NCBI GenBank assembly: GCA_003225315.1
Contig: QHZD01000031.1
Coordinates: forward strand, 1-64,000
Origin: Acidobacteriota bacterium
GTDB taxonomy: Bacteria > Acidobacteriota > Terriglobia > Acidiferrales > UBA7541
Length of the DNA: 64,000 nt
Direction of reading: 5' to 3'
The translations under genes and the position numbers were made by a program. Shown one piece after another: positions 23,317-27,342 of the stretch (within the stretch, counting starts at the first letter, position 1; each line of letters begins with the position of its first letter). The notes beneath the pieces are model-generated. The model saw only the letters and a program-made list of their open reading frames with translations, searched no databases and was not told the DNA's origin.

Positions 23317-24738
23317 ATGAACGACACTGATCTGGCATTTGCGTCTATCGAGGAAATCGGAAGACTTTTCCGCAAGCGCAAACTTTCGCCCGTGGAAGTC
23401 ACCAAGCTTATCCTCGCCCGCATCGAGTTGGTCAATCCCAAACTCAACGCCTACATCACCGTCACCGCTGAACTTGCACTTGCGCAAGCCAAAAAAGCTG
23501 AATCGGAGTTGTTTGCGACGCACGGCCGAAAAGGACATCGTGATCGCGGCCCGCTGCATGGCATCCCTGTCTCGTTGAAGGACAACATTTACACCGCGGG
23601 CAGCCGTACCACGGCTGGTTCCAAGATTCTGAAAGATTTCATTCCAAAAGAAGACGCTGCCGTCGTCGGCCAGCTCAGGGAAGCGGGCGCGGTTTTGCTA
23701 GGCAAGGCCAACATGCACGAGTTCGCCTACGGCGTAACATCGAACAACCCGCATTATGGTCCTGTCCGCAATCCGTGGGATCTCGCGCGCATCCCTGGAG
23801 GCTCCAGCGGCGGGTCCGCAGCGGCCGTCGCCGCGGGACTTTGCTACGGAAGCATCGGAACGGACACCGGCGGCTCCATCCGTATTCCCGCGTCCCTCTG
23901 TGGCCTCTTTGGACTAAAGCCGTCTTGGGGCCGCATTTCTTGTGAAGGCATTGTCCCGCTCTCTCCTGCTCTCGATTGCGCAGGGCCGCTGGCTCGGACC
24001 GTAGGTGACGTCGCCACTCTGACGGGAATTCTGTACTCGCGCGTGGGTCGCGAGCCAAACATGGCAAAACTTTCGGCTCTGCGGACTGATGCAAGAAAGC
24101 TTTGCCTGGGAATTCCGCGTCAACTGTTCTTCGATGCTCTTTCAAATGAAGTCCGAAGTGCGTTTGACTCCGCGTTGCGCGAGCTTTCCCGCGCAGGCGT
24201 GGCCACGAAAGAAATTTCCGTCCCGCTGCTCGATGAAACGGAAGATGCGGGCAATCATATCGCCTGGACGGAAGCAACTCTCTACCACCAGCAACAGGGA
24301 TATTTCCCAGCACACGCCGCGGAATACGGCGACGACGTCCGTTCAAGGCTGGAAATGGGAAACAAAGTGCTGGCGGTTGACTATTTGCGCGCGCTGGAGA
24401 TTCAGAGACAATTCATCCAACAGTTGCATCTGGCTCTGGCAGAAGCGGATGTGGATGCCATCATTTTCCCTTCAACTGCGATTGAGGCTCTGCGATTGGA
24501 TCAGGAAACCATCCGCCTCGGGGCGCACGAGCATCCGGCTCGCGCTTTGTTGTTGCGCCACAACCGTCCGGCAAATCTCGCCGGCGTACCAGCTGTTTCC
24601 GTTCCGTGCGGATTTACGCGCTCAGGATTGCCCACCGGTTTGCAAATCATGGGCGGTGTCTCAAGCGAGGCGCTGTTGCTCCGCATCGCGAAAATCTTTG
24701 AGCGTTCCCAGCCTCAACATCGCAGGCCGCCGGTCTAG
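23317..24738 (+). CDS. Amidase-signature family hydrolase (GatA-like)
   Basis: A 473-residue amidase. The Ser-cisSer-Lys triad can be assigned to K88 (PVSLKDN), S163 (GGSSGGS) and S187 (GTDTGGSIRIP), and the C-terminal PANLAGVPAVSVPCG block is also typical. It hydrolyses an amide bond. It resembles GatA, but no gatB or gatC is nearby, so a stand-alone amidase is more likely. A GTG at 23308 is an alternative start; neither has a strong SD. It ends on a CTAG that is also the stop of the convergent PAP2 gene, so the two stop codons overlap on opposite strands. Confidence 0.85.
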   Translation: MNDTDLAFASIEEIGRLFRKRKLSPVEVTKLILARIELVNPKLNAYITVTAELALAQAKKAESELFATHGRKGHRDRGPLHGIPVSLKDNIYTAGSRTTAGSKILKDFIPKEDAAVVGQLREAGAVLLGKANMHEFAYGVTSNNPHYGPVRNPWDLARIPGGSSGGSAAAVAAGLCYGSIGTDTGGSIRIPASLCGLFGLKPSWGRISCEGIVPLSPALDCAGPLARTVGDVATLTGILYSRVGREPNMAKLSALRTDARKLCLGIPRQLFFDALSNEVRSAFDSALRELSRAGVATKEISVPLLDETEDAGNHIAWTEATLYHQQQGYFPAHAAEYGDDVRSRLEMGNKVLAVDYLRALEIQRQFIQQLHLALAEADVDAIIFPSTAIEALRLDQETIRLGAHEHPARALLLRHNRPANLAGVPAVSVPCGFTRSGLPTGLQIMGGVSSEALLLRIAKIFERSQPQHRRPPV

Positions 24739-25793
24739 CCTGCTGTCGTTGCAACGGCGCCTCGCGTCTTCATGATCCAACTGCCGATCACAAAGCCCAG
24801 CGTACCCGTCATTATTCCGCCGAAGACATCCGCCACGTAATGGTTTCGCACGTAAACTGTGGAAACGCACATACACAGGACGAACGGGAGGAATATCCAG
24901 AATAGCCACCTTTTGTGCCGCCACGCTCCCAACAGGGCAGCGACCGCTCCTGCTACGTGCTGCGAGGGAAACGCCGCGCCGCGCACTCTTCCGCACTTTT
25001 CGATCAGGCTGATGAGCGCCGTGAATGGTCCGCCCACGAGGTCGCCGTGCCACATGCCCGCAAAAGTAAACCACGGGCTTTGCACGGGAAAAAACATTGA
25101 GATCACATAGCCGAGGGCGTAGCCGACGGCGGAATACGTCATCACACACCAATAGCTTTCCCAGTCACGCCGGCAGTAGAGAATCCCGCCGAGAATGAGC
25201 AAAAAAACAAAGTAAGTAAAGTATGCAAATTCCATGAATTCGTTCAGAGCGGGGTGCGTAAAGCGCTCAAGCCACAACGGGGGATTCACCCCCGTCAGCC
25301 ATTCATCAAACGCGATCAGCTTGGCGTCCTGCCAAGCGGGCGTCACCAGGTGAACAAGTTTTCCCAGTTCCTCAAAACAAAACAGAAAAAACAGATGTGG
25401 ATACCAATGCCGCCAGAAACGCCAGAACCTTGAGGCGGCAGTTTCCCCTTGCCACTTCGCTTGCCCCCCGACTTTGGCCTCCAAGAGGCACAGCGTCAGG
25501 ATCAGCGCCGCGACCAACGCTTGGACGCCGAACAACCTCACGGGATGCGCGAGATTTTCCGCAAACACGGCGATCAGCGCGCTCGATGTAGCCAAATACG
25601 CCAGCGCCACCCATTCGAATGCTCCGCACGACTCCCAGGCCGCTACTGCTTCGCGCGTGAACAGCGAAGCGATTCCTTTCTTCCCCGCTTCAGAGCTGAC
25701 AGCGCTTCCTTCGACTTCCGTGGCAAGCGCTTCCGCACGCCAGGCGAGCGCTGCTTCGTCTCCTCTATAGCTCTGTCGCTGCGCCTCGTTCAT
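24735..25793 (-). CDS. PAP2-superfamily membrane phosphatase or inositol-phosphotransferase-like protein
   Basis: A 352-residue membrane protein. The first 50 residues are polar, then about six to eight helices follow. PAP2 motifs are FPSQHVAG (phosphatase motif 2, near 270) and STVYVRNHYVADV (motif 3, near 309-321), in which the usual Arg after Ser is Thr. The separate N-terminal motif (KxxxxxxRP) is not evident. This arrangement is closer to the PAP2_3/Aur1-like (inositol-phosphoceramide synthase type) branch than to classical phosphatidic acid phosphatases. Its start overlaps the upstream HAD gene by 4 bases (ATGA). With the CDP-alcohol phosphatidyltransferase it probably completes or remodels a phospholipid headgroup on the periplasmic side. 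Confidence 0.82.
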   Translation of the reverse strand: MNEAQRQSYRGDEAALAWRAEALATEVEGSAVSSEAGKKGIASLFTREAVAAWESCGAFEWVALAYLATSSALIAVFAENLAHPVRLFGVQALVAALILTLCLLEAKVGGQAKWQGETAASRFWRFWRHWYPHLFFLFCFEELGKLVHLVTPAWQDAKLIAFDEWLTGVNPPLWLERFTHPALNEFMEFAYFTYFVFLLILGGILYCRRDWESYWCVMTYSAVGYALGYVISMFFPVQSPWFTFAGMWHGDLVGGPFTALISLIEKCGRVRGAAFPSQHVAGAVAALLGAWRHKRWLFWIFLPFVLCMCVSTVYVRNHYVADVFGGIMTGTLGFVIGSWIMKTRGAVATTAG

Positions 25794-26671
25794 TCGGCAT
25801 TCTCCGGCCTCGCGAGTTCCATCCGGCAACCTCGGTGCGCTCTGTGCTCTTCGTCGCAAGGCGATTGATTGTTCTTTTCGTTCCAATTCAATACTGGCCA
25901 CGCGCGCGACCGCGCAATGCTCGCAAGGTCTTTCGTTGGATTCACGGCCACTGGCCTGCCGACCGCCGCCATCAGCCACCGGTCAGTTAAGTGGTCGCCA
26001 TACGCGTAGCACCGCTCCAGATCAAGCTGCATCTCTTCCGCCAGCCGCTTCGCCGCACGCGCTTTCACTTCCCCAAACATTGCTTCTCCCAAGATTCGTC
26101 CCGTCCACTTTCCGTCTTCTTCTTCCAGACGCGTGGCGCATAGGAGAATCCTTGCGGTGATTCCGCGCGCCGCAACCTCGGCTTCCATGGCCCGCGCGGC
26201 TTCCCGAGCCAACGGCTCGAGAGTGCCGCTCACCAGGACGATTTCGTGGCCCTGCTTCGCGTGCCATGCCACTCTCTCAACGGCTTGCGCAAAAAAGGCT
26301 GGGACAGGCAACCGTGGATTGCACCTCGGAGGAGCCGACGCCTGTCCCTCGGCCTGGTGGCCGCCTTTGTGCCAAGAGGAGACATGCCTGTCTCTCTCGC
26401 CACACTCGTCAAGAATATGTACACCACGGAGATATGTTTTGTTCGCCTGCAAAATTGCGTTGATTCCGCGCGGCAAAAGCCGCATCCCTTCCCTCAACCA
26501 CAGAAAATAGTTTCTTATTGGAATTTCTTTCCGGTATCTCAGAATCCGGAAAAATCTTCTCTCCAGCGACGGCAGGGGCATGAGCGTTCCATCTAAGTCA
26601 AGGAATGCCGCGATGTTTCTTTCCGACTCGTTTACTTCCTTTATCTCCTTGACGCCCTTTTGCGTTTTCAT
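25790..26671 (-). CDS. HAD-IB-type phosphatase with an unusual internal insertion
   Basis: A 293-residue HAD-superfamily protein. Motif I is FLDLDGT (D25, D27), motif II is IVLVSGT near 144-150 and motif IV is YGDHLTD near 241-247, as in the SerB/HAD-IB group. Residues about 86-123 (HILDECGERD...CNPRLPV) are Cys/His-rich and unlike the rest of the chain. They are encoded by DNA carrying two inverted repeats and look inserted between the cap helix and core. The reading frame is kept, so the protein is probably still made. Both ends overlap neighbours by ATGA. A phospholipid or phosphoalcohol substrate is inferred from the partners. Confidence 0.8.
   Translation of the reverse strand: MKTQKGVKEIKEVNESERNIAAFLDLDGTLMPLPSLERRFFRILRYRKEIPIRNYFLWLREGMRLLPRGINAILQANKTYLRGVHILDECGERDRHVSSWHKGGHQAEGQASAPPRCNPRLPVPAFFAQAVERVAWHAKQGHEIVLVSGTLEPLAREAARAMEAEVAARGITARILLCATRLEEEDGKWTGRILGEAMFGEVKARAAKRLAEEMQLDLERCYAYGDHLTDRWLMAAVGRPVAVNPTKDLASIARSRAWPVLNWNEKNNQSPCDEEHRAHRGCRMELARPENAE
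26301..26394. repeat. Palindromic element inside the HAD coding sequence
   Basis: Two structured pieces lie in the coding sequence for HAD residues about 93-124. A perfect 9-base inverted repeat (GGGACAGGC at 26301-26309, GCCTGTCCC at 26340-26348) is followed by a smaller one (GAGACA at 26379-26384, TGTCTC at 26389-26394). Both share an ACAGGC/GCCTGT core. The arrangement suggests a dispersed palindromic repeat that inserted in frame. Confidence 0.5.
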
Positions 26672-27342
26672 GCCGCCTCCTGTGCTGGACTCTTCGCGCC
26701 GCGCGCCAGCCCCGCGTTGCTGGCAAGGTATTTCCACCCCTCCGCCAAAACAGGCAGCCCACGCAGGAGGCAAAACGCAGCCGTCATCCACGTCAGGACA
26801 TGCGCCCCCACGCGAATCGTGGCGTGCGCGTCCGCAGCCAGTTCACCCACCAACGTGACCGGCCCGCGCGTAAGGGCGAGCTCCAAACCCAAGTAGCAAA
26901 AGCACAGGCACTTCATCGCCGCATACAAACCGCGGCTCCAGCGCGACGCCACGAGCGCCTGTCCCCACCACGTGCGTAACATGGCATTGGCGCCCCAGCC
27001 GGAATGCCCCCCTTTCATCGCCAGCCCACGCAGAAAATCCGTCGCTGCCCCGCGCGCAAAAAACAAAATGGGCAGCCACAGCGACACCATCCCTACAACC
27101 GCGAAATATGTGAAATAGACGTTTTCGATCATGCGGTCGCCGAGGATATCCAGTTGCGCGCCCACGGGCGTGGCCATTTTTTCCTTCCGCGCAATATGCC
27201 CATCAAGCGCATCCAGCGCGATCGCTGCTACGGTCAGCCCCAGGGCCGTAAGGTTTGCCCACGAACCGCGCCCGAACAGACACACGGCCGCAAATCCCAC
27301 GGCAACCCGCAGCAACGTCACTTTGTTTGGCGTCCATCGCAT
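26668..27342 (-). CDS. CDP-alcohol phosphatidyltransferase
   Basis: A 224-residue membrane enzyme that replaces CMP of a CDP-alcohol (CDP-diacylglycerol) with a hydroxyl acceptor. The complete family motif is present: D44-x2-D47-G48-x2-A51-R52-x8-G61-x3-D65-x3-D69. About six helices follow. Length fits the phosphatidylinositol- or phosphatidylglycerol-phosphate synthase range, and the acceptor (inositol phosphate, glycerol phosphate or other) cannot be told. The ATG at 27342 was used; an ATG at 27387 would add 15 polar residues. It is first of three ATGA-coupled genes with a HAD phosphatase and a PAP2 protein, suggesting stepwise transfer then dephosphorylation. Confidence 0.87.
   Translation of the reverse strand: MRWTPNKVTLLRVAVGFAAVCLFGRGSWANLTALGLTVAAIALDALDGHIARKEKMATPVGAQLDILGDRMIENVYFTYFAVVGMVSLWLPILFFARGAATDFLRGLAMKGGHSGWGANAMLRTWWGQALVASRWSRGLYAAMKCLCFCYLGLELALTRGPVTLVGELAADAHATIRVGAHVLTWMTAAFCLLRGLPVLAEGWKYLASNAGLARGAKSPAQEAA

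Follow-up and report, generated by a model that had tools for sequence, protein, structure and literature searches.

Three overlapping lipid genes form a conserved cassette on the minus strand of contig QHZD01000031.1 of an Acidobacteriota bacterium (assembly GCA_003225315.1, a genome of 4.98 Mb in 57 contigs), within the 64,000-nucleotide stretch (positions 1 to 64,000) that was analysed as a whole and is called the window below. In order of transcription they encode a CDP-alcohol phosphatidyltransferase (CDP-AP; gene 1, 27342-26668, protein P0001, 224 aa, family PF01066), a HAD-IB phosphatase (gene 2, 26671-25790, P0002, 293 aa, recognised by TIGR01490 and an FxDxDGTL motif) and a PAP2_3 (Aur1-like) membrane protein (gene 3, 25793-24735, P0003, 352 aa, recognised by PF14378, its fold and its motifs). 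This trio is a conserved lipid cassette that is found in two classes of the phylum. We favour the reading, at slightly less than even odds (a probability of roughly 0.45), that the three genes work together so that a phosphoglycerol-type headgroup would be made, dephosphorylated and passed to a non-ceramide lipid.

Conservation of the cassette

Genes 1 and 2 share a four-base ATGA start/stop overlap at 26668..26671, and genes 2 and 3 share another at 25790..25793; both were read directly from the minus strand, and both had been claimed in a preliminary description made from the sequence alone. A lone overlap of this kind says little, because the base before a TGA stop easily yields a start codon. 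Among relatives, an in-frame NTGA overlap occurs at the gene 2/gene 3 junction in 25 of 34 testable loci and at the gene 1/gene 2 junction in 32 of 35, the remaining three being one different arrangement and two fusions (L089 and L090), in which genes 1 and 2 form a single open frame of 497-498 codons.

The gene 1 loci were gathered by scanning named genomes with a gene 1 alignment and two short peptide patterns, a procedure that distant relatives could escape. All 37 loci lie in draft genomes from metagenomes named Acidobacteria, Acidobacteriota, Terriglobia or Acidoferrales, including two of Candidatus Acidiferrum typicum and many named gp2 AAxx. The HAD gene comes next in 35 of these 37 Acidobacteriota loci and the PAP2 gene is there in 34, and the exceptions (L107, L121 and L093) are interrupted by contig ends. 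Of 81 whole relatives, 34 have a PAP2 match with an E-value no higher than 1e-70, and the complete trio stands at 28 of the 30 PAP2 loci that were fetched and examined. The other two are cut at a contig end, namely L009 of G027, a genome in which genes 1 and 2 are adjacent at another contig end, and L015 of G005, where a search for gene 2 found nothing and gene 1 is a fragment at a contig end. To the 30 fetched loci were added those of G036, G037 and G048, three genomes of other genera that also carry the trio, with G035 left out. In the same genus, five genomes (G001, G002, G003, G006 and G012; 74-94% complete, two of them at 74% and 82%) lack a PAP2 match, and these also have no HAD match and only paralogue-level matches to gene 1. 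A lack of co-occurrence in related genomes, which the preliminary description took as grounds against its own proposal, was looked for and not found: the three genes co-occur.

In the window, the trio lies between an amidase gene, which ends beside gene 3, and ccdA, which starts beyond gene 1, and the two flanks are 3.0 kb apart. Empty sites were sought in 14 genomes, with spacings taken as distances between match ends. In six of them, G002 from the same genus and G039, G040, G045, G046 and G047 from other genera of the same family, amidase and ccdA are separated by about 110-200 bases with no trio between. As for the other eight, G010 has the trio, the flanks of G044 are about 1.1 kb apart, no ccdA was seen within the stretch available beside the amidase in G012 and G041, and no close amidase was present in G001, G003 and G038, so that the insertion site was not seen there. 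The eighth, G006, has a different insert between amidase and ccdA (L204:3140-5855), with a DUF3352 match just below its cut-off. The flanking genes lptD, amidase, ccdA and tlpA are syntenic among the named relatives too, and they are uninformative about the substrate, because they also stand together without the trio. The amidase gene of the window is convergent with gene 3, and the 3' ends of the two genes share four bases (24735-24738).

The second class emerged from a PAP2 profile survey of 396 genomes of the phylum, in which at most five candidates were scored per genome and 72 genomes matched. Besides the window's own locus, one of 29 surveyed PAP2_3 loci, examined with 1.5 kb flanks, has the trio (L173 of G311). 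A close gene 1 is present in 3 of 162 genomes of the class of G311 (G311, G577 and G578, all of one family), and in all three the genes stand in the same order as in the window, with a gene 1 identity of 42-44%. No amidase, lptD or ccdA match was found within 16-18 kb around these trios; at L202, one of these other-class loci, tlpA gave three weak matches, none nearer to the trio than about 4.5 kb.

Pairwise ratios of nonsynonymous to synonymous substitution rates against four relatives are 0.07-0.10 for the CDP-AP gene, 0.24-0.33 for the HAD gene and 0.13-0.19 for the PAP2 gene. Purifying selection acts on each of the three genes, and the trio is a selected unit, with gene 2 the fastest-changing member.

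Gene 1 and the nature of the headgroup

P0001 belongs to the CDP-alcohol phosphatidyltransferase family (PF01066, 56.8 bits, cut-off 22), and the complete D-x2-DG-x2-AR-x8-G-x3-D-x3-D motif described for it earlier is indeed present, at residues 44-69. The strict motif occurs at 34 of the 37 loci; of the three others, two carry V in place of A, and L122 has a broken N-terminus. A further variant is the CDP-AP gene of G018 (L023:32-655), in which 18 residues are missing, in frame, from a transmembrane stretch and which may be an inactive copy.

The host genome has five CDP-AP genes, and gene 1 fits none of the types scored. One of the others (L001) is PgsA, with 150.1 bits to TIGR00560, over the cut-off, and the rest are all under theirs: a ClsA-like copy (107.1 bits), a Pss-like copy (103.5 bits) and, on contig C22, a full-length copy resembling phosphatidylinositol phosphate (PIP) and archaetidylinositol-phosphate synthases (164.9, 132.8 and 129.4 bits, the second of these to the PIP synthase model NF045883). 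Gene 1 itself scores 31.1 bits to NF045883, whose cut-off is 170.

The preliminary description had proposed a phylogeny against phosphatidylinositol (PI), phosphatidylglycerol phosphate (PGP) and PIP synthases. In a tree of 42 rows the trio proteins form one group (97/98), separate from the PIP-synthase-like and Pss-like rows and placed with the PGP/cardiolipin-type (PgsA/ClsA-like) enzymes at a support of 91/81, which is moderate for a tree that is rooted at the midpoint and has E. coli PgsA as a long branch. The predicted structure points the same way. The gene 1 model (mean predicted local distance difference test score, pLDDT, 80.4) matches best the S. aureus PGP synthase with bound PGP (7drj, Z 17.9, 2.8 Å over 170 residues), followed by 7drk (Z 17.6), a PIP synthase (5d92, Z 14.7) and the remaining structures at 12.5 or less. 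Gene 1 thus appears nearest to the PGP synthase and CDP-AP cardiolipin synthase types, and the use of glycerol-3-phosphate is suggested by the match of its model to 7drj.

Inositol-phosphate synthase (MIPS) occurs in 73 of 81 genomes, and its frequency is so alike in trio carriers (31 of 34) and non-carriers (42 of 47) that it has no association with the trio; it was not found in the carriers G010 (98% complete), G029 and G030 (97% complete). The host, whose genome the preliminary description had suggested checking for this enzyme, does have a MIPS gene (L040:7345-8658), on contig C1 rather than beside the trio, among open reading frames that on visual inspection resemble malate and isocitrate dehydrogenase. 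The PIP-synthase-like gene (L042:8244-8861) is on yet another contig, and together the two genes suggest that the host has a route to inositol lipids that does not depend on the trio. Inositol was set aside as the headgroup on MIPS co-occurrence, the tree, the fold and this second PIP-synthase-like gene. Of the unusual inositol or glycerol lipid first envisaged, the inositol half therefore loses ground, and glycerol fits better.

Gene 2, a HAD-IB phosphatase

P0002 scores 114.4 bits to the HAD-IB model TIGR01490 (cut-off 98.3), and all 35 gene 2 orthologues have the FxDxDGTL nucleophile motif; the first Asp of motif IV is replaced by Asn in some of them. The PgpC model TIGR01545 (cut-off 259.25) gave no match to P0002 at E up to 1, and the orthologue in L080 reached 21.1 bits. 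Judged by its family and motifs, gene 2 probably removes a terminal headgroup phosphate.

An inserted element in the HAD gene was considered and rejected, since the alignment shows a region that is variable in length and sequence. The sequence GCCTGTCCC occurs three times, against 0.58 expected, and one of 100 shuffles reached as many; two copies form an inverted pair in this variable region (window 26301-26348), and the third lies in gene 1 (26957-26965).

Gene 3 and the proposed acceptor lipid

P0003 scores 73.9 bits to PF14378 (PAP2_3, cut-off 27), and the earlier view that it is nearer to the Aur1 branch than to PgpB gains support from both fold and motifs. The top fold matches of its model (pLDDT 78.6) are Aur1-Kei1 (9ivc, Z 16.5, 3.6 Å over 216 residues) and inositol phosphorylceramide synthase (9vj4, Z 16.2, 4.5 Å over 251 residues), ahead of LpxE (Z 15.0, 2.9 Å over 160 residues), human glucose-6-phosphatase (13.5) and PgpB (12.9). 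An FPSxH motif is present in 34 of 34 orthologues and an STxYx3HYx2D-like motif in 29 of 34, with A for S in the other five, and a P-x-x-x-P-W-like motif is present as well. PAP2 phosphatases, in contrast to Aur1-like proteins, are marked by SRx5Hx3D and KX6RP; the former occurs in none of the 34 and the latter in one, in its C-terminal tail. In profile searches with the gene 3 sequence, a PAP2 phosphatase of B. subtilis was matched at E 0.033 and Aur1 only at E 0.4-0.5, in an alignment that spans the PSxH and HYxxD motifs. To the model of phosphoinositol dihydroceramide synthase (NF052609, the BT_1522 type, cut-off 480) gene 3 scores 18.0 bits. On fold and motifs we propose gene 3 as a candidate headgroup transferase, and active sites of PAP2 proteins face outward.

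A ceramide acceptor would call for a serine palmitoyltransferase (Spt). None was found over the NF047599 cut-off in 49 and in 12 genomes (61 in all), compared with 2 of 14 controls. Among 19 PF00155 matches in the host genome, the two that were typed are Kbl/BioF-like, which is the single strong match to an Spt model, and HisC, and neither is an Spt by cut-off. In the carriers of the other class, Spt models have no match in G311 and at most 25.7 bits in G577 and G578. An oxoamine synthase beside L187 was considered as an Spt and rejected, as it types as Kbl. Ceramide was set aside as the acceptor on the lack of any genome over the cut-off, with the caveat of a sub-cut-off gene in G034, and a ceramide acceptor in general is unlikely.

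G034, a trio carrier of the same genus, has at L252:374-3928 an apparent operon of a PAP2_3 paralogue, a GNAT protein and an Spt-like oxoamine synthase, for which NF047600 ranks first with 437.7 bits, under a cut-off of 640. With these genes, one of the trio carriers seems to have a sphingolipid operon. Because the Spt-like gene falls below them, the Spt cut-offs may be set too high for this phylum.

A proposed pathway

In outline, the mechanism is likely to run in three steps. Gene 1 would couple CDP-diacylglycerol with a phosphorylated polyol, for which glycerol-3-phosphate or a closely similar compound is the most likely candidate, to give a PGP-like lipid on the cytosolic side; the acceptor would be phosphorylated, and a phosphate would therefore be left for gene 2 to remove. 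The HAD-IB enzyme would then strip this terminal phosphate to give a phosphatidylglycerol (PG)-like lipid. Gene 3, on the outer side of the inner membrane, would shift the phospho-polyol headgroup onto a hydroxyl of a second, non-ceramide lipid, freeing diacylglycerol. The succession of transfer, dephosphorylation and transfer had been put forward in the preliminary description, and it has a precedent in Bacteroides thetaiotaomicron, where the order of the steps of BT_1523, BT_1525 and BT_1522 for an inositol lipid is supported by knock-outs, according to excerpts of PMC9246714; for the present genes we infer the reactions. The fuller proposal, of a hitherto undescribed bacterial pathway in which phosphoglycerol or a similar phospho-polyol is carried by an Aur1-family enzyme from a locally made PG-like donor to a non-sphingoid membrane lipid, so that a lipid class particular to these Acidobacteriota would arise, is tentative and on balance rather unlikely.

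Several observations weigh against a glycerol-type pathway that ends on a second, non-ceramide lipid. Gene 1 scores 52.6 bits to the pgsA model TIGR00560, under its curated cut-off of 109.1, and nearly as much (48.1 bits) to archaetidylinositol-phosphate synthase, its second-best NCBIfam match; its last motif Asp is followed by Arg, which the host PIP-synthase-like copy also has at this place, and not by the Lys of the host PgsA; and the tree carries the rooting and branch-length limits given above. With a canonical PgsA already present in the host, another ordinary route to PG would be superfluous. On the side of gene 3, the phosphatase LpxE is just 1.5 Z under Aur1, Foldseek alone found no match at E 0.001 (best E 4.3e-3, weak), and PAP2_3 is a broad family whose members need not be transferases. 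In G034, because of its Spt-like gene, the acceptor may still be ceramide.

The trio might instead be an accessory PG route, in which gene 1 is a PGP synthase, genes 2 (PgpC-like) and 3 (PgpB-like) are two phosphatases and there is no second lipid. In E. coli, the HAD-type PgpC and the PAP2-type PgpB both dephosphorylate PGP. Such a route would agree with the PgsA-like fold and tree position of gene 1 and with the close fold match of gene 3 to LpxE, and 8bm3 and 5jki, also matched by the gene 3 fold, are titled in the PDB as PAP2 PGP phosphatases. It is an unlikely reading, if a serious one, since gene 3 is without the canonical phosphatase motifs and nearer to Aur1 than to PgpB, gene 2 is unmatched by the PgpC model and PgsA is already encoded elsewhere in the genome. 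The enzyme order is also that of the Bacteroides-type inositol pathway, in which gene 1 would yield PIP, gene 2 would convert it to PI and gene 3 would transfer phosphoinositol; the host has MIPS, gene 1 has its near-equal archaetidylinositol-phosphate synthase score, and CDP-AP/HAD pairs, one of them a fusion, are reported in an alternative cluster of Bacteroidetes (excerpts of PMC9246714). Nevertheless, the tree and fold of gene 1, the separate full-length PIP-synthase-like gene on C22 and the distribution of MIPS, which was not found in G010 and G030, is not associated with the trio and does not lie beside it, make an inositol product improbable.

If the second lipid were a ceramide made through an unrecognised serine palmitoyltransferase, the Aur1-like character of gene 3 would be readily accommodated, as would the paralogue and Spt-like gene of G034, and cut-offs can miss real cases; yet the surveyed genomes stay below the cut-off that 2 of the 14 controls exceed, and the sole strong host match is Kbl/BioF-like, so that we give this version quite a small chance. 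It is very unlikely that only shared regulation keeps the three genes side by side and that their enzymes serve separate pathways. In favour of this reading, the lptD, amidase, ccdA and tlpA flanks are syntenic as well, but the CDP-AP/HAD fusions, the joint gain or loss of the three genes, their conserved coupling and their recurrence in a second class, away from those flanks, support the single pathway that the preliminary description had proposed.

Relation to known systems

The closest parallel to the trio is BT_1522-1526 of B. thetaiotaomicron, where a CDP-AP, a headgroup phosphatase and an AUR1-like protein are likewise encoded together and act in sequence. That cluster, as excerpted from PMC9246714, has a PIP synthase, a PgpA-like phosphatase, MIPS within the cluster and a ceramide acceptor, whereas the trio has a PgsA-side CDP-AP, a HAD-IB phosphatase, MIPS elsewhere in the genome and no serine palmitoyltransferase over the cut-off used. 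In the alternative cluster of Bacteroides vulgatus and Prevotella, a CDP-AP lies near a HAD hydrolase and is fused to it in P. veroralis, similar to L089 and L090. This cluster differs in that an NTP transferase and MIPS adjoin and no PAP2 protein is named in the excerpted text; its functions are putative, and the authors suggest that headgroup transfer may be carried out by the HAD protein itself (PMC9246714).

The individual proteins also stand apart from their relatives. Gene 1 shares its fold and tree neighbourhood with S. aureus PgsA (7drj/7drk) and the host L001, but it has half of the TIGR00560 cut-off and forms a separate clade. Gene 3 resembles Aur1 and inositol phosphorylceramide synthase (9ivc, 9vj4) in its fold, in PSxH and STxYx3HYx2D and in the P-x-x-x-P-W-like motif, but the identity is 17-18% in structural alignments, the profile match is the weak one given above, and its acceptor is not likely to be ceramide. 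The L252 operon of G034 likewise has a PAP2_3 protein in a three-gene lipid operon of the same genus, although there it is tied to sphingoid-base genes and not to a CDP-AP or HAD gene.

Literature searches on operons of CDP-alcohol phosphatidyltransferase, PAP2 and HAD genes, and on sphingolipids, inositol lipids and lipids of Acidobacteria, found no description of the trio in the titles and the beginnings of abstracts of the papers listed. The hosts, of the Candidatus Acidiferrum or Acidoferrales kind, appeared in the genome searches only as drafts from metagenomes; soils commonly harbour Acidobacteriota of this type, about whose lipids little is known. The trio is small, its coupling is conserved, natural fusions occur and some relatives have clean empty sites, so that a headgroup-transfer pathway could be tested directly by expressing just three genes. 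If the proposed pathway is true, the Aur1 type of headgroup transfer would reach beyond inositol and ceramide.

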